27,246 nucleotides of DNA from IMG/VR virus record IMGVR_UViG_3300009149_009958, positions 1-27,246 of that record, one strand, 5' to 3'. Source of the DNA: a virus. How positions within the stretch are numbered: the first letter of the stretch is position 1; each line of letters begins with the position of its first letter. Positions 7,528-24,854 of the stretch are shown piece by piece. The notes beneath the pieces were generated by a model, which did no database searches, had not been told where the DNA came from, and saw only the letters and a list, made by a program, of their open reading frames with translations. The position numbers were made by a program, and so were the translations under genes.

Positions 7528-8799
7528 ATGAAGAATACCGCAGCCCGGAAGCGAAAACAAGTACCTGAGGGATACCTGATTATAGGAGTTGATCCTCATA
7601 AGAAGAAGCATGCCGCGGTGGCCATTACGCAGGACTTCACCATCCGCGATAGATTCAAGTTTGACAATACCAGGGAAGGGCTCGAATTCCTACTACGCAG
7701 AATCAGGATAGAGATGGTAAAATCCGATTGCCGGGGAGTTATGTTCGCGATCGAGACGGGAGGCCACTACTGGCGAAATGTGGCGTATTATCTTGATGAG
7801 AAGGGAATTCCGTTCCGTTTCATCAACCAGTATACCTTGAAGAGGAGACGAGAGGGGAAGGACCTCAATCGTAGAAAGAATGACTATCGCGACAGTGAGG
7901 TGGCGGCGCAGCTCTTGTGTACCGGGGAGTTTGTTGAAAGCGTGATTCCGCAGGGCGTCTATGCAGAGCTTCGCACCGCCCACAATGCGTATCGCCGCCT
8001 GGTTAAGGAGAGAACCAGGATCATAAATCTGGTAAAAGGGCTTCTGGACGGGCTTTTCCCAGAGTTCACCCATGTCTTCAAAGACCCTTGTGGGCTGACA
8101 GCCCTCAGTGTACTCTCCACCTGTTCTATCCCCGGTGTGATTGCTGGGATGACGGAAGATGAATTTGTAGCTACCATTGAAACGAGACACCGGGGGCGGC
8201 TTATGCGGAAGAAACTGATGGCACTTCATTATGCGGCGAGGTCATCTATTGGTATTGCGGCGGGTGCCAAATCGGTATCGTCCGAGATTTCCTTCCTGGT
8301 AGAGAAACTCGAGCTCATCAGAGGGCATATCTGTGCCATAGAGAGAACATTAGTCAGGCTGGTGGACGAAACGGAAGAAGGCAAGTACCTGCTCTCAATA
8401 AGGGGGCTCAATTATATTGCTGTGGCTGGATTACTGGCAGAACTAGGCTGTTTCAAATCGTACCGGAGTGCCAAACAGATGATTAAGATGGCTGGCAGTA
8501 ACCCGACCGAATCAGAATCAGCTGGGAAGAGAAAATCACGAACTCCAATGAGTAAGCAGGGGCGCCCGGTACTGAGATACTGCGCATGGACGTCGGTTAT
8601 CCCGATGCTGCGATTCAACTCTGATTTCCGTGCTTGGGCAAAGCAGAGGCGAGAACGGCCAGCCCATGCCAACCCCCTCAATGGAAGGGAAGTTGTCGGG
8701 GCAGCACTCAACAGGCTGTTGCGTTTGTCCTTTGCCATGGTTAAGAATCAGACCTATTACCAAGTTCCAGAACCAGAATTGGCACCGGCCACAGTCTAA
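7528..8799 (+). CDS. IS110-family DEDD transposase
   Basis: RNA-guided recombinase-type transposase of the IS110 superfamily. The N-terminal RuvC-like DEDD domain begins GVDPHKKKHAAVAI (first Asp near residue 22). It continues with the Glu of AIETGGHYW near residue 75 and the KNDYRDSEVAAQLL Asp pair near residue 118, which together fit the four acidic catalytic residues. The C-terminal Tnp_20-type domain shows IRGLNYIAVAGLLAELG, then MAGSNPTESESAGKR, where a Ser acts as nucleophile in the family, then KQGRPVLRYCAW. At 423 residues it is full length. The ATG at 7528 follows AGAAGGAG. The end and the 3' flank appear intact, so the element may be active. Confidence 0.93.
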   Translation: MKNTAARKRKQVPEGYLIIGVDPHKKKHAAVAITQDFTIRDRFKFDNTREGLEFLLRRIRIEMVKSDCRGVMFAIETGGHYWRNVAYYLDEKGIPFRFINQYTLKRRREGKDLNRRKNDYRDSEVAAQLLCTGEFVESVIPQGVYAELRTAHNAYRRLVKERTRIINLVKGLLDGLFPEFTHVFKDPCGLTALSVLSTCSIPGVIAGMTEDEFVATIETRHRGRLMRKKLMALHYAARSSIGIAAGAKSVSSEISFLVEKLELIRGHICAIERTLVRLVDETEEGKYLLSIRGLNYIAVAGLLAELGCFKSYRSAKQMIKMAGSNPTESESAGKRKSRTPMSKQGRPVLRYCAWTSVIPMLRFNSDFRAWAKQRRERPAHANPLNGREVVGAALNRLLRLSFAMVKNQTYYQVPEPELAPATV

Positions 8800-8830
8800 A
8801 ATATTGGAGGTAACGATAACGCATCAGGGT

Positions 8831-8987
8831 GGGCAGGGAGACGCCGGTCGATGTTTTGGGAGCTCATTTGAGCCAACCCGTGTGCACAACATGGTGCCCC
8901 TGCCCTCCTGGCCAAACCCGTATGTGGTATGATGGGATCTTCCATAGGAAGCGAGCCCGTATCTAACAGCTAAGTTGGGAGCCAGGA
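8831..8987 (+). ncRNA. Candidate guide (bridge/seek) RNA of the IS110 element
   Basis: Immediately downstream of the transposase the sequence folds by eye into two abutting domains. Domain 1 is closed by GGGCAGGG (8831-8838) with CCCTGCCC (8898-8905), contains ATGTT/AACAT (8851-8855, 8888-8892), and has an apical GCTC/GAGC hairpin. Domain 2 is closed by TCCTGGC (8906-8912) with GCCAGGA (8981-8987) and contains CTTCC-ATA-GGAAG (8939-8951). Two stem-closed domains with internal loops are what IS110-type guide RNAs show, and the 3' position is typical of the IS1111 branch. The pairing is seen in the sequence; the function is inference. Confidence 0.5.
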
Positions 8988-9238
8988 AAAGAGAGGCTGG
9001 GGTCTGCCCACCGATGTGAGACAAGAACAAGGAAATTTAGCTGGAACCATTGACCTACAGGAATATAGTATGTTGTACAGTAAATTGCCCAGGAAGTCTT
9101 GTACTTCACTTCGCTATAGAGCAGCCTACAGGTCAAAGGCACAATTCGTCAAAATGTGCAATGAGGACACACCCCGTCAATTCGTGCAGTTCCTAATAGT
9201 CAAGTCCTGGGGCGAGAAACAGTCCTTCCTAAAGCATC

Positions 9239-9270
9239 GGGGGCTCCCCGCCGGCGTGACGGGGAACCCC
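9239..9270 (-). terminator. GC-rich hairpin after the last phage gene
   Basis: GGGG (9239-9242) and CCCCG (9246-9250) pair with CGGGG (9260-9264) and CCCC (9267-9270), giving a nine-pair stem with a small internal loop. It lies 23 bases past the stop of the leftmost phage gene, but there is no U-rich run after it on the minus strand, so it is a weak terminator candidate. The rest of 9016-9292 holds no gene I can support. Confidence 0.3.
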
Positions 9271-9292
9271 TACGGGCCTGCCGGGGACCGGA

Positions 9293-10102
9293 CTACCTGG
9301 TCGCGGTAACCCGGAGCGTCTCCTCTTTCCAGATGCGGATGCCGAGGATGTTCTCAAGGCCGGCCCGGACGAGCTTGCCTACTTTGGCGACGTCAATCAT
9401 CTTGTACTCATCCGGGACCTGGCTGAAGTCTTCTATTGCCCACTTTGGAACCATCATCTTCCCCACGGTTCCCATCTCGGCCCGGATGTGGTCGGGTACC
9501 GGCTCTACCTTAACCATTTCTACCGGCTCAGTGAGCTCACCCCGGAGCTCCATTTCCGCTGCGGCCGCCTCCATCCGGAGCCGGTTGATTCGCTCGGCCT
9601 CCAGGCGCTTCCGGTCCTGCTCTGCCCGGTAGGCCAGTATCTTCTCCCTGGTGACCTTGTTGGCCAGGGCAAGCGGCTCCGTAAGGGTCTTAAAAGCTGT
9701 CCGGACAGCCGTCAAGTGGCTATTGATGGGGCCAGCCCACTTCTTCTGCTCAACCTCGATGGCCTTCATCACGCCGGTGATGATACCCAGGTCGTTGGTG
9801 GCGCCCTTTACATCCTCACCGCTGGCGATGGTAAGCGCCCGGGCATACTGTGCCAGCCTCACCGCCTGGTCATATAAGGCGATGACCGCCTGGTCCCCCT
9901 GGGGCCTGATTTGGATTACGGCCGTGGCCTCGGGCAGCGGCTCCTCGGGTGAGGGGTCGTCGCCCTCATAGATACAGGCCAGCTCATAGGCCCCGCATAG
10001 CTCGGGCCCCAGCTGGGCCAGGCTGTATTCACAGGCCGATGAGCCTTCTCCATTGCCCGTGTCCTTCATGTGCTCGCAATACCGGCACAATTTCTGCTTC
10101 AT
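9293..10102 (-). CDS. Phage protein, nuclease-inhibitor/DUF1351-like
   Basis: A 269-residue cytoplasmic protein. The N-terminus has a Cys cluster (CRYCEHM, then CEYSLAQLGPELCGAYELAC) that could bind zinc or an iron-sulfur cluster. Residues about 90-200 form a long charged helix (KVTREKILAYRAEQDRKRLEAERINRLRMEAAAAEMELRG in pieces), and the C-terminus carries a VPKWAIEDFSQVPDEYKMID stretch followed by a basic helix and IRIWKEETLRV. This helix plus WxxxDxxxVPxEY arrangement is common in phage early-region proteins annotated as DUF1351-like or host-nuclease inhibitors. It is the last gene of the minus-strand operon. The ATG at 10102 follows AGGAGAAAGAG. The family call is moderate and the role unproven. 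Confidence 0.6.
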   Translation of the reverse strand: MKQKLCRYCEHMKDTGNGEGSSACEYSLAQLGPELCGAYELACIYEGDDPSPEEPLPEATAVIQIRPQGDQAVIALYDQAVRLAQYARALTIASGEDVKGATNDLGIITGVMKAIEVEQKKWAGPINSHLTAVRTAFKTLTEPLALANKVTREKILAYRAEQDRKRLEAERINRLRMEAAAAEMELRGELTEPVEMVKVEPVPDHIRAEMGTVGKMMVPKWAIEDFSQVPDEYKMIDVAKVGKLVRAGLENILGIRIWKEETLRVTATR

Positions 10103-12766: not shown

Positions 12767-12798
12767 GAGCCAGCGAGCCCGACAACAGATGGGGCTCG
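12767..12798 (-). terminator. Rho-independent terminator
   Basis: On the minus strand, CGAGCCC (12798-12792) pairs with GGGCTCG (12780-12774). Alternatively GAGCC (12797-12793) pairs with GGCTC (12771-12767), which is followed at once by TTTTTATTTGTTTTC. The hairpin plus U-run is a good intrinsic terminator for transcripts coming leftwards from the structural genes and hairpin array. Confidence 0.6.
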
Positions 12799-12804
12799 AC
12801 AGGT

Positions 12805-12840
12805 GGGGTGGTGTCTGGGGTGGTGTCTGGGGTGGTGTCC
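12805..12840. repeat. Three tandem copies of a 12-bp unit
   Basis: GGGGTGGTGTCT is present three times in a row (12805-12816, 12817-12828, 12829-12840), the last with one changed base. It is adjacent to the terminator and in the gene-free block. On the plus strand it is G-rich with potential to form a quadruplex. Confidence 0.75.
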
Positions 12841-13002
12841 AGTGGCGATGATGAACCGTCCGGCCACTGCTCTGGCACTTCGTGATTGCGTCCCAGGGCT
12901 GCGGAACGCGGGCGCGGCGAATGCCCGCCCGACCCGCAAAGCCCGGGTAAGCTGGGGCAGCACCAGCAGGCGATAAGGCGGAGGGGTGGATGTGCCCAGG
13001 CC

Positions 13003-13350
13003 TACCACTCCCCATAGCTTTCTGGGGTAGGGTGGAAAGGCGACTGGTTACAGTCGATGGGGGGGTATACCACTGCCATAACCTTTAAGGGGGTGGAGGC
13101 CGACTGGTTACAGTCGGACGGGGTGGGGGTATACCACTGCCATAGCTTTCAAGGAGGTGGGGAATGGACTGCGTAGCAGTCCAGGGGGTGGGGTATGCCT
13201 CCCCTGGCCTCCCGTGTGGGGTGGAAAGGCGACTGGAACAGTCGACGGGGGGTGGGGTATACCACCTACTCTCACCTTCAAGGGGGTGGGCGACTGCTCA
13301 GCAGTCGCTGGGGTGGGGTGTGTTCCTCTCGACGGCGACGGCTTCGTCGT
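13003..13350. repeat. Periodic array of six hairpins with G-rich spacers
   Basis: Six hairpins at 13041-13056, 13100-13117, 13165-13183, 13230-13244, 13290-13308 and 13336-13349. The first five are spaced 60-66 bases centre to centre; the sixth is about 43 bases on and less similar. The flanks repeat too: CATAGCTTTC and AAGGGGGTGG before the stem, GGGGTGGGGTATACCAC after it. The stems differ in sequence but keep pairing. The block 12565-13297 contains no gene I can support. Confidence 0.75.
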
Positions 13351-13546
13351 GGTTGCACCTGCCAGCGGTGATGCCTTTGACGGGCATGGGGGGCTGGGTG
13401 GGGGGTGGGGTTCTGCTTACTCTTTCGGCTTCCGTGGCCTTTTCCTCTGCTTGTTTTGTTCTTTTATTCCATGGCTTTACGGCTAGCTTTTGCCCTGTTG
13501 TTTTGACCCCCCAGACGGAAATGGGACTCCTAAAAACATCCCCCAT
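13298..13546 (-). CDS. Small hypothetical phage protein (82 aa)
   Basis: Begins MGDVFRSPISVWGVKTTGQK, continues with a Lys/Glu-rich helix (KPWNKRTKQAEEKATEAERV), a proline-rich stretch and a tail ending HPSDC. No family is recognised. The ATG at 13546 follows GGGGGAAGGGAAAAC. The N-terminal half reads like a real protein; the C-terminal half is low complexity and its TGA falls exactly in the loop of the fifth hairpin of the repeat array (13298-13300). It could be a real last gene of the structural operon whose 3' end has merged with the array, or a chance frame. Confidence 0.4.
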   Translation of the reverse strand: MGDVFRSPISVWGVKTTGQKLAVKPWNKRTKQAEEKATEAERVSRTPPPTQPPMPVKGITAGRCNHDEAVAVERNTPHPSDC

Positions 13547-13587
13547 GTTTTCCCTTCCCCCGGGGGGTGTGTCGGCGGGAACGAAAA

Positions 13588-13782
13588 TCAGGCCGCCGGC
13601 TTGGGCTTCGAACAGGACGCCTCCTCGGGACGGCGAGAGCCGGCTGTCGCTGCCTTCTTCACCGCATCGGCGATGGCGAGCTGCTGGAGCACACTGAGGG
13701 CGGGCTGTATCTCGATATTCCCTGAGAAGGCAGCCTCCCTGGTGTCCGTGTTGAAAGTAAAGACAAAGATTATTTGGGGCAT
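13588..13782 (-). CDS. Small phage protein (64 aa)
   Basis: Begins MPQIIFVFTFNTDTREAAFS and continues as a beta strand pair (GNIEIQPALSVLQQL) followed by a helix and a Lys/Pro-rich tail. Small proteins of this look occur next to phage tail genes, but I know no function. The ATG at 13782 lies inside the 3' end of the previous gene, overlapping it by 13 bases, with GAGGAGAAG as ribosome-binding site within that gene. Confidence 0.65.
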   Translation of the reverse strand: MPQIIFVFTFNTDTREAAFSGNIEIQPALSVLQQLAIADAVKKAATAGSRRPEEASCSKPKPAA

Positions 13783-14018
13783 TTCTTCTTCTCCTCCTCA
13801 AACTTCTCACTCGTAAGCCTCTCGCCCTGGTGGTAATGCTCTACCAGTGCCGACAGCTGAAGCTTTTCGCCGCACTGCCAGCAGAATTGAGCCTCCCTGT
13901 CTACCAGGTGGCGGCAGGCCTCGCAGACATATTCCTCAGTAATTTCCTTCGCCTGCTTACCTGTTGCCGGCGAGAAACCAGCGTCTTTTATGTTCTCCAG
14001 CTTGATAATGTTGGCCAT
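13770..14018 (-). CDS. Zinc-ribbon phage protein (82 aa)
   Basis: After an N-terminal stretch (MANIIKLENIKDAGFSPATG) comes a zinc ribbon with CEACRH near residue 32 and CWQCGEKL near residue 48, then an acidic helical tail. The start codon overlaps the stop of the tail protein gene by one base (TAATG), and a GGAGG site precedes it, so it is translated from the structural transcript. Role unknown; zinc ribbons of this sort may help assembly or bind nucleic acid. Confidence 0.7.
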   Translation of the reverse strand: MANIIKLENIKDAGFSPATGKQAKEITEEYVCEACRHLVDREAQFCWQCGEKLQLSALVEHYHQGERLTSEKFEEEKKKCPK

Positions 14019-16597
14019 TATGTGTTCGTCCTCCAGGCCCCGCTGGAGTAGACATAGATATCCCCGGAGCCTGCACCTTTTATCTTGATGCTGCCCTCGG
14101 TACCCGCTGCCGAAGTCAGAAAGATAAAACCTCCGTCGGTAGAGGGGTAATGGTATTTAGCGTAAACGCTGTGGAAGCGGCGGTTGCTGGCCCCCAGCGT
14201 CCAGGAGCCGTCGTTCTTCGATACGATGGACTGCGTTTCAACATAGTCCCACATGTCCAGCCTCAAGTGCCCGCTGGTATCAATATAGAGCTGGGCGGAA
14301 TGTGCTCCCCCGGAGTCCTTGAGGGTTAGCTTGCCGCCGGTGATGGTTACGCCGGCGGTGGCATCGATGTCCACCCCGCTTTCGCTGTACCAGTGCCCGC
14401 TCACCACAACACTGCTCGTGAGCTTGATGTGGCCTGAGCTTATATCCGTGGCTCTGACTCTCTGATAGGTGGCCCCGTTGGGTAAATCGTCCAGGTTCTT
14501 GCCGCTGAAGTGGTCGACATCGGGGCTGCTGCAGGTATGAAAGCCTGTAACATCGGCGCCGCTCTCTACGCCACCAAGTTTGCCCTGCTCCGTAGAGGTG
14601 TATTTCTTATAGGTGGCATCCTCGACCGTTGAGGATAGCTTGATATGGCCTGATGATATGTCGGTCAGGAGGACTTTGCCGTAGCTTTCCCCTTCCGCTA
14701 TGTCGTCTAGACCCCCCAAACATTCCGCCAGGAGAATGTGCCCCGCAGATATATCGGTCACCGCTACCCTGCCGTAAAGCGCTCCATCCGCTATGTCGTC
14801 GATGTCCCCGGCGGCCTCCGAGAGCAGGACCTTGCCAGCGTCCAGCACGGCAGCCAGTGTCCTGCCGTAAGTCGCTCCGTCGGCGAGGTCGTCCAAATCG
14901 GACGGCGGGACGCCGGTGTCCCACAGATTGACGCCGCCCTCCGCCAAATCGTCCGTGCTGCCGGCGCACTCCGATAGCTTGATATGCCCGGCTTCAATAT
15001 CGGTCTTCGCTACCCTGGCGTAAACCGGACCGTCGGGAATGTCGTCGAGATCGGCATCGCCCGGCATCCTGGTCGTCGGGTCATAGCCTGTCGCAAAAAC
15101 ACACTGGTCCGAGAGCTTTATCTTGCCAGCCTCGAGCTGGGTTGAGAGGACCCTTTGATAGGTGGCTCCCTCCGGAATGTCGTCGAGGCTATTACCAGCA
15201 AGGTCGAACTTGGCCGTCGGGTCATAGCCTGCCTTGTAAAAGATATTCTCGTCCAGCTTAACCTGGCCGGCGTCGAGGTGGAGGCTTTTAACCCGGGCAT
15301 AGGTCTCCCCGTCGGGGAGGTTATCCAGGTTATCGCCTATTTGAGAGAGGTCGACATTGCCGTCCGGGTCGAGCCAGACCATGTCGAGGTTCTCGGCCTG
15401 GATGTTCTCGGCATAAAGGTCTTTGACCTTCAAGCGGGTAAAATACTCCTCGAGCTCATCGGTGCTGGAGAGTCCCAGACTTGCGAGCACCTTTCTGACA
15501 TTCGTCCAGGAGCCGAAGCTGAAGGTCATCCGCCAGAGCGGGCTGCCAGCAGTGTAGCGGCGGGTAAGGGAACCCAGGGTACCTATCCTGAAGTCATTCT
15601 CCCGCTCATCGGTTACCTTCACATAGTCGAAGACCTCGGCGCCGGCATTCAGGGGGACGCTGGCATCTCCTGCCTCGCTCCAGAGCCGGTGCCCGGCCAG
15701 GATAGCCCCGGCAATACTGGCCGCCTGGGCATCGCTCTCAAGCCTCATCTGCTCGTAGTCCCGCTTGGGCAGGAGCGCATAGGACTCGTTATCCTGGGCA
15801 TGCCCGGAATACTGGGGCTCGTCGTCGGGCTGGCTCATGACCACGATGTAATTCGGGACGACCAGCCGGTGCCGGTAAGCTTTAGAGAAAAAGGTGTGCC
15901 CGCTCTCAAGGCTGTATTCATAATCGTAGACTGCCCCGGTGGTAACGGGCTCAAAGATATGGACGCTGCCGTCGGCCCCGGCCCGCATCACGCACTTCGT
16001 GTAAGAAAGCAGCCGCCGCACCGCCGCCAGGCGAGAGCCTCCGACATATATCCGGAAGCTGTCTCTCGGCTTGAGGGAGTCAATCAGGCCGTCCTCGCTG
16101 TCCCAGGCTACCTCATAGGCGGCGCAGTGATTAAAGCAGGCCAGGGTGGCCCCCAGGATTTCACCTGAGAGCGTCTTGACTGTCTTAACATCGGCGGAGG
16201 TTGGAATATAGCTCGTGCTGGCTTTATCGTCGGCCATCAGGTTCGGTATGCCGGCCAGCTCAAGGATGCAGTCCAGCTTACCGGGGGATGAGTTGAATTT
16301 CTGGCTCATCACCCATAGGGGGGCACAGGCGGAGTACTCCTCGCCGGCGGTGGTGACGGCTCCGTAGCTTATAACCGCCTGGTAGCCCTTGAGGTCGAGG
16401 GAGGTCAGCGCCCCGTCGGAATTGTCTAACTTGAGCTCAGCCCGCTGGGTATACGGCTCCTCGGTGTGCTTTATGTCAAGTATGCGGTCCCGGGTGTAAG
16501 TATAAGAGCTTACCCCGTGGGTTAAGACAACCTTGACCAGGGCATCGATGGACGCTGCCTTTTGCGCTGCCTTAAGGGTCTCGGTGAGGGTTCTCAC
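14018..16597 (-). CDS. Phage tail/baseplate protein with seven internal repeats
   Basis: An 859-residue protein with a GTG start at 16597 behind GAGG. Residues about 1-400 are a mixed beta region resembling phage baseplate hub or tail-associated proteins (YTYTRDRILDIKHTEEPYTQ, then AELKLDNSDGALTSLDLKGY). Residues about 425-755 hold seven copies of a segment with consensus DIxDGxxYxRVxxTDIxAGHIKLS, spaced roughly 30-55 residues, of the kind that builds trimeric tail-fibre shafts. The C-terminus (SAAGTEGSIKIKGAGSGDIY) looks like a beta-structured tip. It is the last large structural gene. A baseplate/tail fibre role is likely; the exact part is inference. Confidence 0.72.
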   Translation of the reverse strand: MRTLTETLKAAQKAASIDALVKVVLTHGVSSYTYTRDRILDIKHTEEPYTQRAELKLDNSDGALTSLDLKGYQAVISYGAVTTAGEEYSACAPLWVMSQKFNSSPGKLDCILELAGIPNLMADDKASTSYIPTSADVKTVKTLSGEILGATLACFNHCAAYEVAWDSEDGLIDSLKPRDSFRIYVGGSRLAAVRRLLSYTKCVMRAGADGSVHIFEPVTTGAVYDYEYSLESGHTFFSKAYRHRLVVPNYIVVMSQPDDEPQYSGHAQDNESYALLPKRDYEQMRLESDAQAASIAGAILAGHRLWSEAGDASVPLNAGAEVFDYVKVTDERENDFRIGTLGSLTRRYTAGSPLWRMTFSFGSWTNVRKVLASLGLSSTDELEEYFTRLKVKDLYAENIQAENLDMVWLDPDGNVDLSQIGDNLDNLPDGETYARVKSLHLDAGQVKLDENIFYKAGYDPTAKFDLAGNSLDDIPEGATYQRVLSTQLEAGKIKLSDQCVFATGYDPTTRMPGDADLDDIPDGPVYARVAKTDIEAGHIKLSECAGSTDDLAEGGVNLWDTGVPPSDLDDLADGATYGRTLAAVLDAGKVLLSEAAGDIDDIADGALYGRVAVTDISAGHILLAECLGGLDDIAEGESYGKVLLTDISSGHIKLSSTVEDATYKKYTSTEQGKLGGVESGADVTGFHTCSSPDVDHFSGKNLDDLPNGATYQRVRATDISSGHIKLTSSVVVSGHWYSESGVDIDATAGVTITGGKLTLKDSGGAHSAQLYIDTSGHLRLDMWDYVETQSIVSKNDGSWTLGASNRRFHSVYAKYHYPSTDGGFIFLTSAAGTEGSIKIKGAGSGDIYVYSSGAWRTNT

Positions 16598-16677
16598 TTA
16601 TTGCCTCGCTTAATTTTTTTCAGGGAAACAAATCACGAGCGCACTCCCGTGGGGAAGCGGTATTTAGCTACGATTTG

Positions 16678-16730
16678 TTTTGCGCTTTAGCGCAAATACT
16701 TAATGTATTATTTCTCATCCCCTCCCCTCC
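16678..16730 (-). repeat. Repeated leader element, copy A (degenerate)
   Basis: TTTGCGC-TTTA-GCGCAAA palindrome (16679-16696) plus an AATACxxAATGTATT segment, shared with copies at 23035 and 24059. Here it overlaps the 3' end of the membrane-protein gene and lies 81 bases before the tail protein start. The second palindrome has decayed in this copy. Confidence 0.7.
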
Positions 16731-16986
16731 CGTTTTGCACCGAAGGTGCAAATTTCTGGCCTTCGATGTACTCCTTCCCCCAGAAGAAGTGGCCGAAGAT
16801 AAAGCCGGTGGTGAAGACGCCCATTATTTCGAGCACCCTTATCCAGTCGAAGTGGTGCCCCAGCGCCACGCCGGCGGCCACCAGGCCGATGATCCAGACG
16901 AACTCGGCCTTGTGCCACAGGTCCCGGGTGATATAGGTCCAGGGGCGGCCCCCGATTCTCGACCAGAGCTCCCGGTAGAGGTTCAT
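16708..16986 (-). CDS. Small membrane protein, holin-like
   Basis: A 92-residue protein with two hydrophobic segments, AEFVWIIGLVAAGVALG near residues 27-43 and LEIMGVFTTGFIFGHFFWG near 52-70, separated by a short loop and ending in a charged tail. Two short transmembrane helices in a small protein among phage structural genes fit a holin or a membrane-anchoring tail chaperone; no lysin is visible next to it. The ATG at 16986 follows GGGAGGCAAC and overlaps the previous stop (ATGA). A perfect hairpin TTTGCACC-TTC-GGTGCAAA lies within its 3' coding end. Confidence 0.62.
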   Translation of the reverse strand: MNLYRELWSRIGGRPWTYITRDLWHKAEFVWIIGLVAAGVALGHHFDWIRVLEIMGVFTTGFIFGHFFWGKEYIEGQKFAPSVQNGRGGDEK

Positions 16987-17129
16987 TTGTTGCCTCCCTG
17001 ACGGTCTCCCCTCTCCCGCTTCAGGGCCTCGAGGCCCAACTTGAGTGCGGTGAGTGCGTCCGGGTCAACCTGGAAGACATTCTGCTTGACTTTCCATTCC
17101 AGGATTTCGATAGCTTCTTCTCTGGTCAT
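16983..17129 (-). CDS. Small hypothetical phage protein (48 aa)
   Basis: Encodes MTREEAIEILEWKVKQNVFQ and a helical second half (DPDALTALKLGLEALKRERG). Two amphipathic helices, no family recognised, although the TREEAIxxL-type start is common in tiny phage genes. The ATG at 17129 follows AGAGGAGAG. It overlaps the next gene by four bases (ATGA). Confidence 0.62.
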   Translation of the reverse strand: MTREEAIEILEWKVKQNVFQVDPDALTALKLGLEALKRERGDRQGGNK

Positions 17130-17145
17130 TCTCTCCTCTCTCCCC

Positions 17146-18423
17146 TCATTCGTTATAGAGCTGGCTGGAGCGTATGCGGTTGCGCCTTCCCAGCCTCTTC
17201 AGCCTGTCCTTGAAGGTCTCGAGCCTGCTCTTAGCCCGGGAGGCGAAGGACTTCGAAAGGTTGCTATACTGGGCGGCGCTCGCCTGGTGTCGGCCCGCCT
17301 CGCTCAGGAAAGGCTTCGTCGTGGCGATGTAATGGGAGGCGGTGGTCAGATAAGCCTGCCTCTTCCTGTTAAACTCCCTCGCCTGGCTGGTAAGAGCCAG
17401 GGCGCTGCCGGTATAGCGGCTCCCCGCCTCAAGGTTGGCGTCACGCTTCTTAGAAAGCTCCGAGGCGGCAGAAAGCTCCCGGCCGGCGCCGTCGAGGTTT
17501 CGGGCGGCTTCACTTAAGAAGTCGTCTGCCTGGCGGTTATAGCCCTGGGCAATCCCGGTCTCCCTCTCGGCGTATTCCGCCCACTTCCCCGCGGCATCGC
17601 CTCCGATGTTGACGGTATTGATGAGGTCGCCGCCGGTACCCAGGTCGGCTGCTGCCAGGGTGAGGCGGGCCGGTATGGACGCCAGGGCGGTCTCCGCGTC
17701 GGAAAGGTTAGCAACGGCGGCGTCTATCCTGGCCTGGGCGCTGGTTAAATAGGTCCCGATGGCTTCATCTATGGAGCCGGCGCCGACAGCGATAGCGGCG
17801 GCAACGGCCGCCGATGCCTTGTCAACCTCAGCGGCGGCACCGGTGAGCTTCGTTGCTATCTCGCTATCGACATCGGCCGCAGCGGAGAGGCTGGTTTCGG
17901 CCTTGGTAACCTGACCGGCAACCCGGGCCAGGGCGGTAGAGGCACTCTCGAGGGCAGCCTGGGCCAGCTCGACCAGGGAGTGGTCGGCGTAGGCCTCCAG
18001 GGCGTAGCCCGCCGCCCCCGCGGTAACGATGTCCTCGTGCTTCGTGGGAATAGTGGAGCCGAGGGCGTTCAGGACATGCATCGTCCCGTAATATACCTGG
18101 CAGTTGCCGCCGTTGGGGGCGTCGCCGGTGATTAAGGTCAAGGTGTCCCCCCAGATGGAGAAGCGCTGGTACCTGATGGGAAACTCGTCCACCGGGTACT
18201 CGACCGCCTGCACCATGATGCGGTCTTCCAGGCTCGAGATACCAACCTCCCTCGAGCCGGCGGTGGTGGGGAGTAGAGCCATCGCCGGCAGGGGCACCCT
18301 CTCCGACAGTTCCTTAACGGCACGCTCGATGTGCCGGGTCAGCTCGTCATCCGACCACCGGTAAGGGGAGGTCTCGTCCTTCAGGTCCCGCCTCACCAGG
18401 GTTATCATATCGGTTAAATTCAT
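17146..18423 (-). CDS. Head-tail adaptor-like protein with helical extension
   Basis: A 425-residue protein. Residues about 1-140 (MNLTDMITLVRRDLKDETSP, then YRWSDDELTRHIERAVKELS) resemble phage adaptor or connector proteins that sit between portal and tail. Residues about 145-425 are Ala/Ser-rich helix: a first run of alanine-rich heptads, then a 14- to 16-residue pattern of YNRQADDFLSEA-type segments, ending in a basic tip (RLKRLGRRNRIRSSQ). The extension is far longer than a normal adaptor and suggests a trimeric coiled-coil shaft. The ATG overlaps the TGA of the giant repeat gene (ATGA). Adaptor role by position and similarity; the extension has no known role. Confidence 0.65.
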   Translation of the reverse strand: MNLTDMITLVRRDLKDETSPYRWSDDELTRHIERAVKELSERVPLPAMALLPTTAGSREVGISSLEDRIMVQAVEYPVDEFPIRYQRFSIWGDTLTLITGDAPNGGNCQVYYGTMHVLNALGSTIPTKHEDIVTAGAAGYALEAYADHSLVELAQAALESASTALARVAGQVTKAETSLSAAADVDSEIATKLTGAAAEVDKASAAVAAAIAVGAGSIDEAIGTYLTSAQARIDAAVANLSDAETALASIPARLTLAAADLGTGGDLINTVNIGGDAAGKWAEYAERETGIAQGYNRQADDFLSEAARNLDGAGRELSAASELSKKRDANLEAGSRYTGSALALTSQAREFNRKRQAYLTTASHYIATTKPFLSEAGRHQASAAQYSNLSKSFASRAKSRLETFKDRLKRLGRRNRIRSSQLYNE

Positions 18424-21400
18424 ATGCTCACCTTCCCTCCGGGCGGCAGCCTCATTCCCCCGCCCTTAGCGGCGTGGCTCAGGAGGGCGGCGTAGCGGTC
18501 CTCGCCCTCGCCGGTCTCCGCTTTAACCAGGGCAGCCAGAAGCGATATGAGCGCCTCCGCCCCGCTGCCGCTATCGACCATGACCAGGCCTTTAGCAAGC
18601 AAGGCGTCCGCCCCGCTGCCGCTATCGGTCTTTATCAAGTTTGCCAGAAGCGATATAAGGACTTCAGTCCCGCTGCCGGCTTCGCTCCCGGCCAACGCCG
18701 CTAACAATGATAGCACGGCGTCCGTTCCGCTGCCGGCTTCAGCCCTTGCCAGACCGGCTAATAGAGATAAGGCCTCAGCCCCGCTGCCAGTTTCAGCCAG
18801 GCTAAATAGAGCCGCCAGAACCCGGGCGTCCGTGCCGGCTCCCGTATCCTGGGCGGCAGCCGCAAAGAGAAGGCCGGCAAGCTCGGCGGCAGCTCCCGTA
18901 TCCCCGGCCGCCAGGGCCCCCAGCACCGACAGCGCTGCCTCGAGCCCGCTTCCCGCCTCGCTCGACAGGGCAAGGGCTCTATCACGCAAAGCCTCAAGCC
19001 CGCTGCCAGTCTCAGCTCCGGCCAGGGCGGCCAGCAGTGATGCCAGGCTGTCGCTCCCCGAGCCTGCCTCTGCCCGAACTAAAGCCCCCAGAAGCGAGAG
19101 CACTGCCTCACTCCCTGAACCAACCTCTGCCCTAGTCAAGGCGGCCAACAGTGATGCCAGGCTGTCAACCCCGGTGCCGCTATCAGCCCGGCTTAAAATT
19201 CCAAGCATTGATATGAGCGCCTCGAGCCCGCTGCCAGTTTCGTCCCCGGCGAGCTCTCCCAGGAGCGATAGAAGACTGTCGGCTCCGCTGCCGGCTTCAG
19301 CCCTTGCCAGACCGGCTAATAGAGATAAAGCCTCACTTCCGCTGCCTGCCTCAGCCCCAATGAGGGAAGCCGCTGCCGAGAGCAAAGCCTCAACCCCGGA
19401 ACCGCTATCAGCCCTTGCGAGAGCCCCCAGGAGTGACACCAGGGTGTCTACCCCGCCACCGGTATCGTTAGTAGCAGCCAGCAAAGCGGATAGCAAAGCA
19501 AAGGCCTCGAGCCCGCTTCCCGCCTCGCTCGACAGGGCGAGGGCTCTATCGAGTAAAGCCTCGGCTCCCGAGCCGGTCTCGCTCTTCAATAGCTGGGCCA
19601 GTAACGCCGCACTGGCATCTATCCCCGAACCGCTATCAGAGCGGAGGAGCACATTGGCATATTTAATCAGCTCAGCCAGGGCATCCAACCCGGCGCCTGC
19701 TTCAGTTGAAGCCAGAATTGCCAGAATAAGGCTGGTTTCAGTTCCCAGGCCGGTATCCGCTTTTATAATGCTGGCAAGCTGACCGACCTTCGAGTCCGCG
19801 CCGGCAGCAGTATCAGCCCTGAGCAGGGCGGCTACCAGGGCGGAGGTATCCCCACCGGAGCCTGTCTCGGTATCAAGCAGTGCCGATATAATCAAGCCGG
19901 CTTCAACGCCGGCACCGGCCTCGGCTAACACAATCGCCCTGGCAAGTAACGCTTCTACCCCGGAGCCGGCCTCAGCCCCGGTCAGCGCAGCCAGGAACGA
20001 TAACCTGGCATCCACCCCTGAGCCGGCATCGCTTCTTGCAAGGGCGTTCAGCAGTGAGGTCAGGCTGTCACTCCCTGAACCTGCCTCTGCCCCGATGAGG
20101 GCGGCGGCTGCCGAGAGCAAAGCCTCAGCCCCTGAACCTGTCTCAGCCAGGGCAATGGCCCTACTGAGCAAAGCCTCAGCTCCCGAACCAGTCTCTGCCC
20201 CGGCCAGGGTGGCCAGAAGCGATGCCAGGCTATCAACTCCAGCACCGCTTTCAGCCTTGGTTAAAATTCCCAGAAGCGATGTCAAGTTATCAGCTCCAAC
20301 ACCGGCCTCAGCCTTGCTTAAAGCTGCCAGTAATGATGCCAGACTATCACTCCCTGAGCCTGCCTCTGCCTGAACCAAAGCCCCCAGCACTGAGAGCACT
20401 GCCTCAGCTCCCGAACCGGCCTCTGCCAGGGCAATAGCCCTACTCAGCAAAGCCTCAGCTCCTGAGCCAACCTCTGCCCCGCTTAAAATCCCCAGGAGCG
20501 CTGCCAGGGCGTCGGAGCCGGAGCCGGCCTGACTTGCGGCAATATCCCGCCCGGGCAGTGAATCTATGCCGCCGCCACTCTCCGCCCTGTTGAGTATCGC
20601 CTGAGCCTGGGCGAGGACATCGGAGCCTGAGCCGGTCTCGGTTCTTGCCTGGGCAGCGGCGGGAGCCGACGCTTCGGCACCCGAGCCGGTATCAGAAGAT
20701 TGACAGTCTTTATCCGTGGTAAAATCAATCTCAGCCCCATAGCTATAACCTGCTGAGTTATGGGCATAAGCTCTAGCGTAATATTTAGTTCCCTGGTCAA
20801 GCCCGGTCAGGCTTCTGGTAAAAGCTCCCGTGCCAAAGTCTCCGCTCTGGTCTTCATAGTCATCATAGGCTGTGCTGCCAGGGGCAACATTCCCCGGGTC
20901 TCCCTTGCTTGTCTTTCCGTAAACTATCCCTCTATGGTCAGCATTTGCTCCACCTGTGGCTGTGATATTGCCGTTACCTGTAGCCGTGGCTACTCCTACA
21001 CTGGAGGCTGCCTGAGTGGTGACTGTGGGGGCTACTACTGGTAGTGTGTAATCAACCTCTACGTAAACCTGACTGCACTTACAACTTCCTCCATAAGCCC
21101 CCTGAGACAACCCTACCTGTAAAGATGTGAGGTCAGCCCAAGTCCAGGCAAGCCCTGTTTTAGGATTCAAAGTTTTTTGCTCGCTATAGTCATCCCAACT
21201 AGCGCCTACATTCCCAACCCTAGTCCCAGTATAGGGAGAACCTCCAGCTACATAATAAGGTGTAAATTCTCCGTAATACCACGTTCCATTCATGTCAGCG
21301 TGAAAACCATATTCTCTATAATGGAACTTGATATAATTGATGACTCCTGACCCAGAGGGGCTAGTTAGGTTGTATACATCAGTATTTGAGACGTGACCAC

Positions 21401-21551
21401 CACTGATAACATAGGTTGTGGCGTCATCAGGAGAAGCCTCATCTACTTGCTCAAAATTATGGAGCGGGTCTGCCGCATGATAACTACCGTTATAGTAGCC
21501 ATTTTGAGTGAATAAACCGGCGCCATTCGGTCTTAGGTATTCTTTAACCAT
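18420..21551 (-). CDS. Giant repeat-rich phage fibre protein
   Basis: About 1043 residues. Residues about 1-175 form a beta-rich domain with a DFxxY-like lectin look (NGTWYYGEFTPYYVAGGSPY). Residues about 176-285 resemble a fibronectin type III-like domain (LTGLDQGTKYYARAYAHNSA). From about residue 288 to the end there are some forty degenerate repeats of 17-20 residues with consensus AExGSGxDxLxSLLxAL. The GxGxDxL core recalls half of an RTX calcium-binding turn. The start is put at ATG 21551, overlapping the upstream TGA as TGATG; a GTG nine bases earlier is an alternative. A host-binding or virion-surface fibre is likely; function not proven. Confidence 0.7.
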   Translation of the reverse strand: MVKEYLRPNGAGLFTQNGYYNGSYHAADPLHNFEQVDEASPDDATTYVISGGHVSNTDVYNLTSPSGSGVINYIKFHYREYGFHADMNGTWYYGEFTPYYVAGGSPYTGTRVGNVGASWDDYSEQKTLNPKTGLAWTWADLTSLQVGLSQGAYGGSCKCSQVYVEVDYTLPVVAPTVTTQAASSVGVATATGNGNITATGGANADHRGIVYGKTSKGDPGNVAPGSTAYDDYEDQSGDFGTGAFTRSLTGLDQGTKYYARAYAHNSAGYSYGAEIDFTTDKDCQSSDTGSGAEASAPAAAQARTETGSGSDVLAQAQAILNRAESGGGIDSLPGRDIAASQAGSGSDALAALLGILSGAEVGSGAEALLSRAIALAEAGSGAEAVLSVLGALVQAEAGSGSDSLASLLAALSKAEAGVGADNLTSLLGILTKAESGAGVDSLASLLATLAGAETGSGAEALLSRAIALAETGSGAEALLSAAAALIGAEAGSGSDSLTSLLNALARSDAGSGVDARLSFLAALTGAEAGSGVEALLARAIVLAEAGAGVEAGLIISALLDTETGSGGDTSALVAALLRADTAAGADSKVGQLASIIKADTGLGTETSLILAILASTEAGAGLDALAELIKYANVLLRSDSGSGIDASAALLAQLLKSETGSGAEALLDRALALSSEAGSGLEAFALLSALLAATNDTGGGVDTLVSLLGALARADSGSGVEALLSAAASLIGAEAGSGSEALSLLAGLARAEAGSGADSLLSLLGELAGDETGSGLEALISMLGILSRADSGTGVDSLASLLAALTRAEVGSGSEAVLSLLGALVRAEAGSGSDSLASLLAALAGAETGSGLEALRDRALALSSEAGSGLEAALSVLGALAAGDTGAAAELAGLLFAAAAQDTGAGTDARVLAALFSLAETGSGAEALSLLAGLARAEAGSGTDAVLSLLAALAGSEAGSGTEVLISLLANLIKTDSGSGADALLAKGLVMVDSGSGAEALISLLAALVKAETGEGEDRYAALLSHAAKGGGMRLPPGGKVSI
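18445..20700 (-). repeat. About forty degenerate 51-60-bp coding repeats
   Basis: DNA of the repeat tail of the giant fibre gene. Units of mostly 54 or 57 bases encode AExGSGxDxLxSLL-type segments. They differ by many synonymous changes, so they are old rather than freshly copied, but some neighbours are near identical (for example around 18740 and 19300, and around 20100 and 20160), showing continued exchange. Confidence 0.85.
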
Positions 21552-21928
21552 CAGCGCCACATCCCCGCAAGGGTGTCCATTAAAGTTTCTCCTTCAGGAG
21601 TGTATGCTCGACCAATAACTACATCACCTGCTGGACTTATTATGTCTCGTAATAAGCGAGAGCCTTTTCTTACTTCAACCTTAAATTCTTCCCTAGAGGA
21701 AAAGCCAAGCTCCTGTAGGTTCAACTCATCATTAGAAGTAAAGAACTCACCGAGGGAACTAAAACCCGACTTTCTTAAATCATCCATTAGCTTTTCCAGC
21801 AGCGGGGTGTGGTCTTCGGATATACCTTCATACCAGCCACCAGCGTGGAGTTGGCGGTGCGCCTCACGGTAGGCATCAACCGCCAGCCTGGCACTGAGAA
21901 CCCTGTCATTGTCCGATGCTTCAGCCAT
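21551..21928 (-). CDS. Hypothetical phage structural protein (125 aa)
   Basis: Begins MAEASDNDRVLSARLAVDAY and contains two alpha-helical halves and a strand region near the end (GDVVIGRAYTPEGETLMDTL). No family is recognised; the context between decoration/structural genes and the fibre gene suggests a tail or assembly role. The ATG at 21928 follows GGGGAGC, which lies in the 3' arm of a CCCCCGGGG palindrome. Its TGA overlaps the next start (TGATG). The DNA is less GC-rich than the genes further right. Confidence 0.65.
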   Translation of the reverse strand: MAEASDNDRVLSARLAVDAYREAHRQLHAGGWYEGISEDHTPLLEKLMDDLRKSGFSSLGEFFTSNDELNLQELGFSSREEFKVEVRKGSRLLRDIISPAGDVVIGRAYTPEGETLMDTLAGMWR

Positions 21929-21933
21929 TTACT

Positions 21934-21948
21934 GCTCCCCGGGGGAGC
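21934..21948 (-). promoter_or_regulatory. GC palindrome covering a ribosome-binding site
   Basis: GCTCCCC (21934-21940) and GGGGAGC (21942-21948) form an inverted repeat; on the minus strand GCTCCCCCGGGGAGC ends in the GGGGAG ribosome-binding site of the 125-residue gene. Similar CCCCCGGGG blocks precede ATG 10472 and ATG 13546. Confidence 0.5.
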
Positions 21949-22005
21949 GGAGTTTCCCCCGCCCCCCTGTTCTCGGTCTACCCTATGGAGTATTCCTGCA
22001 TGGGG

Positions 22006-22557
22006 CTAGCTCAGGGTGATAGTGACTTCCAGCGTCCAAGTCCCTGTGGTCTTCGTCCCCAGGGACTCCACCTTGCGGTTCAAGCACTTGGCGCTGGTCG
22101 ATTGCTTGACGACCCACTCGTTCCAGGCGTAGTTAGCGTCAGCCGAGCCGAAGCTGGACTTGAAGGTTGCCTTCTGGAGAGTAGAGGTAGGGAAAGTTGC
22201 CTCCATCGCCTTGTAGGTCTTGTTGGTGGCTGCCTGGAGGTCGGTCTGGGTGGCAGCGGCGGCCGTAGTGGAGTCTCCCACGCCAATCTGGGCATGGGTG
22301 TTATCAAAGATGTGGTCGGCTCCGGTAACTACCCCCGTGACCAGGTCCCATATCTCGTTAATGCCTGAGTTCAAGAGGCAGTTGCCCTCTCCCTCCTTTA
22401 CCTCATAGGGGATGGTGCCCTCCAGGAAGGCTTTCCTTCCCTCCGGGGTCTTTTGAGCATCGATGTCGCCGTGCCTTTTCTCCAGGCGGTAGCGGCAGTG
22501 CCAGTTCGCCCGTTCTTCCGCTTCCCCACTGGAAGTGTGCTCCATTGTTCTTTCCAT
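22006..22557 (-). CDS. Hypothetical phage structural protein (183 aa)
   Basis: Begins MERTMEHTSSGEAEERANWH. It has a middle helix around GTIPYEVKEGEGNCLLNSGI, then NEIWDLVTGVVTGADHIFDN, and a beta-rich C-terminus (WTLEVTITLS). Repetitive Thr/Ala stretches in the middle (TQTDLQAATNKTYKAM) resemble decoration or tail proteins. No family is named with confidence. The start at 22557 follows GAAGGAGGACTAAC; the frame continues upstream through a GC hairpin and is not coding. It carries a 27-bp segment (22515-22541) repeated exactly after the capsid gene. Confidence 0.6.
   Translation of the reverse strand: MERTMEHTSSGEAEERANWHCRYRLEKRHGDIDAQKTPEGRKAFLEGTIPYEVKEGEGNCLLNSGINEIWDLVTGVVTGADHIFDNTHAQIGVGDSTTAAAATQTDLQAATNKTYKAMEATFPTSTLQKATFKSSFGSADANYAWNEWVVKQSTSAKCLNRKVESLGTKTTGTWTLEVTITLS
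22515..22541. repeat. 27-bp direct repeat, copy 1
   Basis: Identical over 27 bases to 23105-23131. Here it is coding (SSGEAEE region of the structural protein); the other copy is non-coding. Contains CTTCC/GGAAG inverted arms. Confidence 0.75.
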
Positions 22558-22578
22558 GTTAGTCCTCCTTCTAGTGGA

Positions 22579-22604
22579 GGGGCGAGGACTCGAACCCCCG
22601 CCCC
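22579..22604. other. GC-rich hairpin between structural genes
   Basis: GGGGCG (22579-22584) pairs with CGCCCC (22599-22604) in the 59-bp gap between the decoration-like gene and the next. The loop holds the 11-mer GGTTCGAGTCC on the minus strand, which looks like a tRNA T-loop, but no full tRNA fits. Could be a weak terminator or a degenerate fragment. Confidence 0.4.
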
Positions 22605-22616
22605 TTCTCACTACTC

Positions 22617-23030
22617 CTAGGCGTGCGTGTGGTCTACGCGGCTGTTTAAGAAAAACATCACCTTTGTTGCCGAGAGGGCAACGCCGATGATGACGTCACA
22701 GTCACCGCTGGTATCAGGCACCGTCTCGGTAACCTTCCCGTTGTCGGTGCCCTCGGCGACATAGACATAGGCGCCGGCGGTAGCCCCGGTGTAGCCGCCC
22801 ACCACGGGATTGGCCGATACGGGGACCTCATCACCGACAGCGCCGCCCCTCAAGGCGACTACCCTGCCCTGGATGGCGGTCCCGACGGTGGCCAGGGCCC
22901 GTTTCCAGCCCGAGCTGTAGCCGAGCACGTCACCCACCTTACATGCCTCAGCCAGGGTGACGGTCTGGGGCTCCGTGCCCCTTCCCGAGTCCAGGATTTT
23001 CCTTCCGGTCGCTGGGTCTGCAAATGCCAT
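22617..23030 (-). CDS. Capsid decoration/stabilising protein
   Basis: A 137-residue protein with the beta-rich pattern of DUF2190-type capsid stabilising proteins: EACKVGDVLGYSSGW, then GRVVALRGGAVGDEVPVSAN, and GAYVYVAEGTDNGKVTETVP. It is directly downstream of the capsid gene, where such proteins usually sit, and would bind the outside of the capsid. The ATG at 23030 follows AAAGGAG and a leader with two hairpins that is nearly identical to the leader of the capsid gene, suggesting strong, shared expression. Family assignment is likely but by eye. Confidence 0.72.
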   Translation of the reverse strand: MAFADPATGRKILDSGRGTEPQTVTLAEACKVGDVLGYSSGWKRALATVGTAIQGRVVALRGGAVGDEVPVSANPVVGGYTGATAGAYVYVAEGTDNGKVTETVPDTSGDCDVIIGVALSATKVMFFLNSRVDHTHA

Positions 23031-23034
23031 AGTA

Positions 23035-23100
23035 AAACTCCTTTCACCTTATTTTGCGCTTTAGCGCAAATACAGAATGTGTTATTCCTTATCCCTCCCC
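23035..23100 (-). promoter_or_regulatory. Repeated two-hairpin leader, copy B
   Basis: Leader of the decoration gene. On the minus strand it reads through an imperfect AATACA/TGTATT inverted repeat, then TTTGCGC-TAAA-GCGCAAA, then AAGGTGAAAGGAGTTT and the ATG. It matches copy C at 24059 almost base for base over about 64 bases. Confidence 0.72.
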
Positions 23101-23104
23101 CATC

Positions 23105-23131
23105 CTTCCGCTTCCCCACTGGAAGTGTGCT
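23105..23131. repeat. 27-bp direct repeat, copy 2
   Basis: Identical to 22515-22541; located immediately after the capsid gene stop, where its CTTCC/GGAAG arms form a small hairpin. Confidence 0.75.
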
Positions 23132-23132
23132 T

Positions 23133-24053
23133 CTAATCCTGCACGCCGATTAGGGCGGCTGCCTTGATAGCTGAGAAGAGCGCCAGGGAGCAGTACCACT
23201 TGATGCGGGTGCGGGTAGCATCCTTGGTCTCCAGGGCGCCGATGGGCTCCACGGTGATGTGCCCCGGTGAAGTCAGGCCTGCCAGGCTCCCCTCACCAAA
23301 CTGCAGGGCGTAGATGGTGGAGTTGGCGGCCCCGGTGGTCAGCGTCTCGACACTGCCACTGAGGGTGTGGGTGTTCAGGATCCAGTCGCTTACCCCGATG
23401 GGGATGCCGTTGTAGAGCTGGACGAACTCCCCCAGGGCGCCGCTCCCGACCTCGAGGTTGTTGCCGGCTGCCCTTGCCAGGGCGTTAATCTTGCGCCTCG
23501 AGCGCCGGCTCATCAGGAGGATGTCGGGCTTGCCTCCCTTCACCGCATCGATGAGCTCGTCAATCTTTGCCAGTGTCAGCGTCGCCCCGGTGGCGGCCAT
23601 CGCAATTACCTGGTCCGATGCGGTGGCGGTATCGATGAGCTTCTTTATGCCGCTGAACTCCTTGGTGCTGGTGGCGGCGTCCCCGTAGATGAACTTCTCC
23701 TCGAAGGAGTGGCGGAGCGCCTTCGCCTTGAGCTCGATGACCGCCGTCTCGATGTCCTGGATGTTGGAGCGGGTCGCCTTCAGGAAATTGTCCACGTCGG
23801 CGTCGCCGCCCATGATGCAGAGGCTGGCCGTCACCTGGGTAAACGTGGGCGTGCTTTCCTGCCAGGTATCCCCGACATCGTAAAAGTCGATGGTGGGGAG
23901 AGCGTTCTCCTTGTTGTAGGTAAGGCCGTTACCCACGATCTCGATAAAGGGGAGGTTCTGGAGGACGGGGGAGTCCTTGATGATGGTCTCGACTACCCCC
24001 TGCACGAGGATATCGTTTGACAGCTTGGCTGCCTCGGTTAGTGTTAATGCCAT
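23133..24053 (-). CDS. Major capsid protein (HK97-fold type)
   Basis: A 306-residue coat protein. The N-terminus (MALTLTEAAKLSNDILVQGV) is the helical start typical of phage coat proteins, followed by an E-loop-like region (TYNKENALPTIDFYDVGDTW), a spine helix (NIQDIETAVIELKAKALRHS), and a P-domain/A-domain pattern with PDILLMSRRSRRKINALARA and an IPIGVSDWIL strand. Length and order after a coiled-coil scaffold fit an HK97-fold capsid protein. The ATG at 24053 follows AAAGGAGTTTAG and copy C of the two-hairpin leader. Assignment is strong from gene order and fold pattern; no prior cleavage site is obvious. Confidence 0.85.
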   Translation of the reverse strand: MALTLTEAAKLSNDILVQGVVETIIKDSPVLQNLPFIEIVGNGLTYNKENALPTIDFYDVGDTWQESTPTFTQVTASLCIMGGDADVDNFLKATRSNIQDIETAVIELKAKALRHSFEEKFIYGDAATSTKEFSGIKKLIDTATASDQVIAMAATGATLTLAKIDELIDAVKGGKPDILLMSRRSRRKINALARAAGNNLEVGSGALGEFVQLYNGIPIGVSDWILNTHTLSGSVETLTTGAANSTIYALQFGEGSLAGLTSPGHITVEPIGALETKDATRTRIKWYCSLALFSAIKAAALIGVQD

Positions 24054-24058
24054 TTTCT

Positions 24059-24122
24059 AAACTCCTTTCACCTTATTTTGCGCTTTAGCGCAAATACAGA
24101 ATGTATTATTTCTTATCCCTTC
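24059..24122 (-). promoter_or_regulatory. Repeated two-hairpin leader, copy C
   Basis: Leader of the capsid gene. Contains a perfect AATACA-TTC-TGTATT inverted repeat and TTTGCGC-TAAA-GCGCAAA ahead of AAGGTGAAAGGAG. Identical hairpin order to copy B. No clear sigma-70 promoter is visible, so its role may be RNA stability, processing or translation control. Confidence 0.72.
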
Positions 24123-24163
24123 CCCTCTCCGAGTTTGCTTCGGCTACGCCTCGCAATAACGGA

Positions 24164-24185
24164 GGGGTCTGGGGTTTCCCCGGTG
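24164..24185 (+). repeat. Dispersed palindromic repeat, copy 2
   Basis: GGGGTCTGGGGTTTCCCCGG form of the element, at the 3' end of the scaffold gene. Confidence 0.6.
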
Positions 24186-24186
24186 T

Positions 24187-24807: not shown

Positions 24808-24814
24808 TGTTTAC
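24800..24814 (-). promoter_or_regulatory. Palindrome over the scaffold start codon
   Basis: GTAAACA-A-TGTTTAC on the minus strand is a perfect inverted repeat whose centre includes the ATG at 24807-24805. It could hide the start codon or be a protein-binding operator. Confidence 0.45.
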
Positions 24815-24828
24815 ATTTCTCCTCTCTT

Positions 24829-24854
24829 GGGGTCTGGGGTGTCCCCAGTGCCCC
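24829..24854 (+). repeat. Dispersed palindromic repeat, copy 3
   Basis: GGGGTCTGGGGTGTCCCCAG form of the element, in the gap between portal stop and scaffold start. Confidence 0.6.

Follow-up and report, generated by a model that had tools for sequence, protein, structure and literature searches.

A tandem array of five GTGG-headed hairpins behind the late genes of a virus related to Dehalococcoidia prophages

We analysed the viral contig IMGVR_UViG_3300009149_009958 over its whole length of 27,246 bases, hereafter the window. Bases 1 to ~9200 are host-like DNA with a G+C content of about 0.48 and genes mainly on the plus strand, including type III-like restriction-modification and IS110 transposase genes; a pRiA4-ORF3-like gene in this part lies on the minus strand. 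From ~9290 onward, G+C is mostly 0.55-0.65 and the genes are on the minus strand. The switch of both G+C and coding strand (8500-9300) is abrupt, adjoins an IS110-type transposase gene and probably marks the border between prophage and host or that of an island. The second part encodes a terminase fragment together with an SPP1-type portal and a capsid protein and is therefore of phage or prophage identity. Since the relatives of the portal, up to 77% identical, are nearly all found in Dehalococcoidia/Chloroflexota genomes, we place the host in this lineage.

The late ORFs (terminase, portal, capsid and tail genes) run along the minus strand down to ~13298, where the array follows (Table 1). 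ORFs flanking the array on both sides are on the minus strand, and the next plausible co-oriented ORFs lie ~0.5 kb beyond it. The array itself is situated between ORFs, with unit 5 overlapping the end of a small orphan ORF; scans with this 82-aa ORF and with the early-side gene revealed no new relatives. A coding origin of the array was rejected, as the unit lengths are not multiples of three. The first-pass annotation had located the array at the end of the structural genes and before a terminator. It does lie after the last structural ORFs on the minus strand, but the terminator-like stem is weak and at chance level, with two such stems found on this strand versus a shuffle mean of 2.3.

Table 1. 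Coordinates of the array and of neighbouring features in the window.
Feature	Position	Strand	Remarks
Terminator-like stem, then TTTTT	12767..12783	-	Not above chance in scan
TGGGGTGGTGTC, three perfect 12-base copies	12804..12839	+	Between array and terminator-like stem; transcribed strand C-rich (CCACCCC)
Five-unit tandem array, ~60-66 bp units	13000..13318	+	Each unit: GTGG-headed GACTG/CAGTC hairpin and G-rich flank
Unit 1	13032..13056	+	GTGG head, 5-nt gap, CGACTG-GTTA-CAGTCG; 6-bp stem, 4-nt loop; hairpin 13041-13056
Unit 2	13093..13117	+	GTGG head, 3-nt gap, CCGACTG-GTTA-CAGTCGG; 7-bp stem, 4-nt loop; hairpin 13100-13117
Unit 3	13157..13183	+	GTGG head, 4-nt gap, TGGACTGC-GTA-GCAGTCCA; 8-bp stem, 3-nt loop; hairpin 13165-13183
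Unit 4	13221..13244	+	GTGG head, 5-nt gap, CGACTG-GAA-CAGTCG; 6-bp stem, 3-nt loop; hairpin 13230-13244
Unit 5	13286..13308	+	GTGG abuts GCGACTGC-TCA-GCAGTCGC; 8-bp stem, 3-nt loop; hairpin 13290-13308
Small orphan ORF, 82 aa, last of late run	13298..13546	-	TGA stop in hairpin-5 loop region; holds the "sixth hairpin"
Late ORF, 64 aa	13588..13782	-	Similar in L005
Zinc-ribbon-like late ORF, 82 aa	13770..14018	-	
Large ORF, 859 aa, probable tail/receptor-type late protein	14018..16597	-	No family match

The five hairpins between 13041 and 13308 share the exact core GACTG..CAGTC, a pattern with five matches in the window versus 0.15 expected; no shuffle gave five. Their centres (13048.5, 13108.5, 13174, 13237 and 13299) are 60, 65.5, 63 and 62 bases apart, and an independent run of Tandem Repeats Finder returned a 64-base period, in agreement with the 60-66-base periodicity described before. 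Six hairpins had originally been counted. The sixth (CGACG/CGTCG, 13336-13349) has neither the core nor the flanks, lies inside the minus-strand ORF 13298-13546 and is not a member. GTGG stands co-oriented 0-5 nt 5' of every array hairpin (5/5), while only two other GTGG-headed hairpin sites of this kind exist in the 27-kb window, both on the minus strand. GGGGTGG occurs at 16 sites in the window, 12 of which are on the plus strand within 12805-13408. The repeats previously noticed in the flanks (CATAGCTTTC, AAGGGGGTGG, GGGGTGGGG and GGTATACC) are present, but some units lack them. G-quadruplexes had been suggested for the units; strict G3+ motifs on the plus strand are confined to the flanks of the array (12791-12832 and 13382-13405). 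The five-hairpin tandem array is real and lineage-specific.

Stem sequences were said to change while pairing is kept. This applies to the stem edges only: the 5-bp core never varies, and pairing is lost in some units. The single clean swap is one pair of hairpin 3 (C-G to G-C). One position further out, hairpins 2, 3 and 5 carry a C-G, T-A or G-C pair and hairpins 1 and 4 a G.A mismatch, and the inner C-G pair is found in hairpins 3 and 5 only. Compensatory change is true, but thin. Across the five units, 10/10 core bases are invariant versus 14/33 ungapped columns of the spacers between hairpins, a modest difference given that neither paired sites nor units are independent; the GTGG head is invariant too. 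Both observations speak against neutral tandem-repeat evolution, in which a palindromic unit of ~64 bp would have been duplicated by slippage or unequal exchange and would now be decaying, its palindromes being kept perfect, without selection, through template-switch correction of quasi-palindromes. Such a history would fit the spacers, which are 60-79% identical from unit to unit, as well as the absence of the array from relatives, its lack of recurrence outside the same virus in IMG/VR pattern scans and the difference of contigs within the array (see below). Although doubtful when taken by itself, neutral evolution is a serious rival that comes close behind the explanation we prefer.

Folding of both strands, proposed in the first-pass annotation, was carried out with RNA and DNA parameters, and the array region proved more stable than 100/100 shuffles on either strand (z -4.4 to -5.8). 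Because both strands fold more stably than shuffles, folding cannot choose between RNA and DNA or between the strands; G.U changes, which would favour RNA over DNA, are absent from the core hairpin pairs. Between the half-sites the spacer is 3, 4 or 5 nt long in different units, whereas the loop keeps a length of 3-4 nt, and a folded single strand is therefore favoured over a dimer bound to duplex DNA. Among the functions put forward earlier, a structured RNA or hairpin thus gains and a protein site on the duplex loses ground.

A DNA-level site would consist of palindromes that are extruded as cruciforms or bound by a phage or host protein, with a repressor, gyrase, an integrase accessory factor and a packaging or partition protein as candidates. 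Five co-oriented palindromes about six helical turns apart and two strands that fold about equally well are consistent with this, and gyrase binding has been described for BIME-2 elements, BIMEs being clusters of REPs (PMC2817692). However, half-sites 3 to 5 nt apart are unusual for a dimeric duplex binder, the terminase genes lie at the opposite end of the late block, and the related phage L005 has the same packaging genes without the array. The virus also carries palindromic iterons elsewhere, in an O-like gene, and altogether we regard a DNA-level site as rather unlikely.

This O-like replication gene has a TIGR01610 N-terminal domain (below cut-off) and contains three internal palindromic iterons, with the same 23/22-bp spacing in three contigs (L015:1701-1761, L022:5709-5769 and L043:7364-7424). 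The half-sites of L043 read TCGTC instead of TCGCC, and pairing is kept in all three sequences. These iterons are likely replication origins of Dehalococcoidia viruses. They resemble the array as short tandem palindromes of the same phage group, but differ from it in their spacing of 22-23 bp, their location within a coding gene, their sequence (TCGCCA..TGGCGA) and their presence in relatives. The repeats of an iteron-type origin would be expected in or near the initiator gene, whereas the late block separates the O-like gene from the array. The iterons are the better origin candidate, and the replication site once considered for the array is less likely because the O-like gene carries its own.

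At the RNA level, the units might form a structured non-coding RNA, probably from the plus strand, with a role as, for instance, a decoy or a regulator. Each unit would then be a three-way junction with an outer CCAC..GGTGG stem, a variable hairpin and the GACTG hairpin. The consensus fold indeed comprised an outer stem and two inner hairpins with three pairs changed on both sides, and a covariance model of units 1-3 recovered the held-out unit 5 (E 9e-9) and the unit of a second contig (E 2e-6) and missed unit 4. But pairing of the outer stem relies on G.U and differs among units, the window has no match to an Rfam 15 family at gathering score, no sigma-70-type promoter was found near the array, and the searches found no homologues on which covariation could properly be judged. 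A structured RNA of this kind is very improbable in our judgement. A tRNA search was likewise negative.

We then looked at the distribution of the array. It recurs only in one other contig, IMGVR_UViG_3300024262_000405 (L004/L012/L015), which represents the same virus and matches the window at 100% identity along 13,966 bases (13281-27246). The last 32 bases of this contig (L012:1-32) fall inside the array and show 8 mismatches and 2 indels against window positions 13251..13280 of the plus strand. The difference reflects either variation of the array between viruses that are identical elsewhere or an error at the tip of the contig. The first-pass annotation had named recurrence in related phages as the sign that would tell the array from a chance or decaying repeat; L005 (77% in the large late protein) and L218 are both without such an array. 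In L005, the 64-aa ORF region is joined straight to the small-terminase region. This fusion of the late-gene end (L005:7480-7750) occurs at a CACTTCCAGTGAGGA-like motif, which is also located upstream of the terminase in L015, and points to a circular junction or to loss of the early region.

The covariance-model search that had been recommended found, with the model of units 1-3, no further array in ~1 Mb of related loci. With a six-unit model, nothing convincing was detected in 50 prophage-bearing genomes, 393 class genomes and 156 order genomes, and the number of covariance-model matches in host-lineage genomes (L175-L179) was about that expected at the E-values applied; for more than 40 genomes at a time the search filters were strict and may have passed over weak members. 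In 393 Dehalococcoidia genomes, a pattern scan gave three matches, no more than the reversed-pattern control. Pattern scans of IMG/VR returned the same virus and otherwise single matches, those examined being chance-like and mostly in coding sequence. BLAST against phages and plasmids yielded nothing.

The statement that no named family matches the array is too strong, given its resemblance to GTAG-class REP/BIME elements. In GTAG-class REPs, a GT(A/G)G head is combined with a perfect stem of 6-13 bp and a loop often of 2-4 nt; such elements have been reported in Chloroflexi among others and are hypothesized to stabilise mRNA (PMC3733652). In addition, REPs were reported to facilitate Rho-dependent termination (PMC2817692). 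All five array hairpins agree with the stem and loop dimensions of the class (PMC3733652), and 5/5 have the GT(A/G)G head on the same strand. Like these REPs, they are clustered, GC-rich perfect palindromes, extragenic except for the overlap of unit 5 with an ORF end, (6-8 bp stem, 3-4 nt loop) with the head 5' of each stem and with pairing kept despite changes at the stem edges. Unlike them, the array has a head-to-stem gap of 0-5 nt with a direct junction only in unit 5, its units of 60-66 bp are repeated whole, and no copies were found outside the virus. BIMEs alternate in orientation, whereas the five units are all co-oriented, and no REP tyrosine transposase gene was recognised in the window, as would belong to a REP/RAYT system. 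Dispersed copies were not above chance in the sampled genomes, all of them from relatives. Because alternating orientation and a matching transposase both fail, we file the array as a variant of REP clusters and not as a member; its appearance is that of a REP cluster, and its function may be similar. CRISPR arrays and type III toxin-antitoxin RNA repeats are also tandem repeats of a few tens of bases. Here, however, the "spacers" are mutually alike and the repeats diverge to 61-89%, and a toxin-sized gene as in type III toxin-antitoxin systems does not adjoin the array.

REP-type transposase genes above cut-off were present in 10/156 genomes of one Dehalococcoidia order. Several of these loci (L235, L239, L243 and L250) are flanked by GTAG-headed palindromes, with alternating clusters in L239 and L250. 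These share headed palindromes, some of them clustered, with the array, but have GTAG as the head, which abuts 8-9 bp stems of other sequence in often alternating orientation. The array could thus be one phage-borne copy of a mobile GTAG-class REP/BIME family that has multiplied in the host genome with the help of a REP-associated transposase. Its GTGG head and its stem and loop lengths fit the class, GTAG repeats are reported in Chloroflexi (PMC3733652), and transposases with flanking GTAG palindromes exist in the order just mentioned. Yet none of the palindromes at these transposase loci has the GACTG core, the head-to-stem distance of 0 to 5 and the single orientation differ from the alternating clusters of L239 and L250, and the three matches among 393 genomes do not exceed the control. 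A mobile origin consequently appears quite improbable.

The explanation we prefer, tentatively and with less than even confidence, is a lineage-specific, REP/BIME-like cluster of tandem palindromes in the untranslated tail of the late transcript. Late transcription of the minus strand would run on through the array and produce an RNA in which CCACCCC-type stretches separate five short stable hairpins; three CCACCCC repeats and, near 12770, a weak terminator-like stem would come next. The hairpins may keep exonucleases from attacking the late mRNA at its 3' end, or aid termination, possibly together with Rho, or do both, and late transcription would thereby be kept out of the co-oriented accessory genes below 12516. 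Units would be gained, lost or replaced via recombination between tandem copies.

Several observations support a late-transcript tail. The array follows the last late ORFs with minus-strand ORFs on either side, its GTGG heads are co-oriented on stems of 6-8 bp with loops of 3-4 nt, the loop is held while the half-site spacer varies, and the fold beats all shuffles. Over most of 12820-13459 the minus strand is C-rich and G-poor (~39% C versus 20-26% G). The sole independent contig matches the window throughout 13,966 bases and departs from it in the array alone. By analogy, the reported link between REPs and Rho (PMC2817692) and the mRNA-stability hypothesis (PMC3733652) point in the same direction, as does rho in host-lineage genomes, where 3/6 sampled Dehalococcoidia had it above cut-off and two more gave strong partial matches. 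On the other hand, the nearest relatives have no such array, so that it does not count as a conserved part of the late operon, the terminator-like stems are no more frequent than chance predicts, and the core has no G.U changes while both strands fold well. Hairpins within C-rich RNA could also hinder Rho loading.

If the late-tail explanation is true, a phage of an uncultured bacterium ends or protects its late message with a REP/BIME-like string of hairpins, which would link the ends of phage late transcripts with a class of repeats that has mainly been described on bacterial chromosomes. The string would change faster than the rest of the known sequence of the virus and could serve as a strain marker. 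If the array is neutral, it is an ordinary tandem repeat. A bolder interpretation, which we consider unlikely, is a phage-borne GTGG-hairpin array with rapid turnover, in which units are swapped as modules between phages that are otherwise identical. Such an array would be the phage counterpart of BIMEs or a hypervariable regulatory RNA, of a kind so far undescribed in viruses of Dehalococcoidia.

Two further repeats were observed in these sequences. One Dehalococcoidia genome contains intergenic strings of differing hairpins beside CCCTCACCCC / CCCTCTCCC tracts (L178, L184, L188 and L196). Hairpins of the type GCGACTGC..GCAGTCGC occur near C-rich tracts in two of these loci (L178 and L184), but they are single and in other contexts, and were rejected as copies of the array. 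In the late block of the window, a minus-strand ORF of 1046 aa (18420-21560) consists mostly of short AGSGSDSLASLLAAL-like repeats, and this repeat protein differs in length between the window and L005, where it measures 829 aa.
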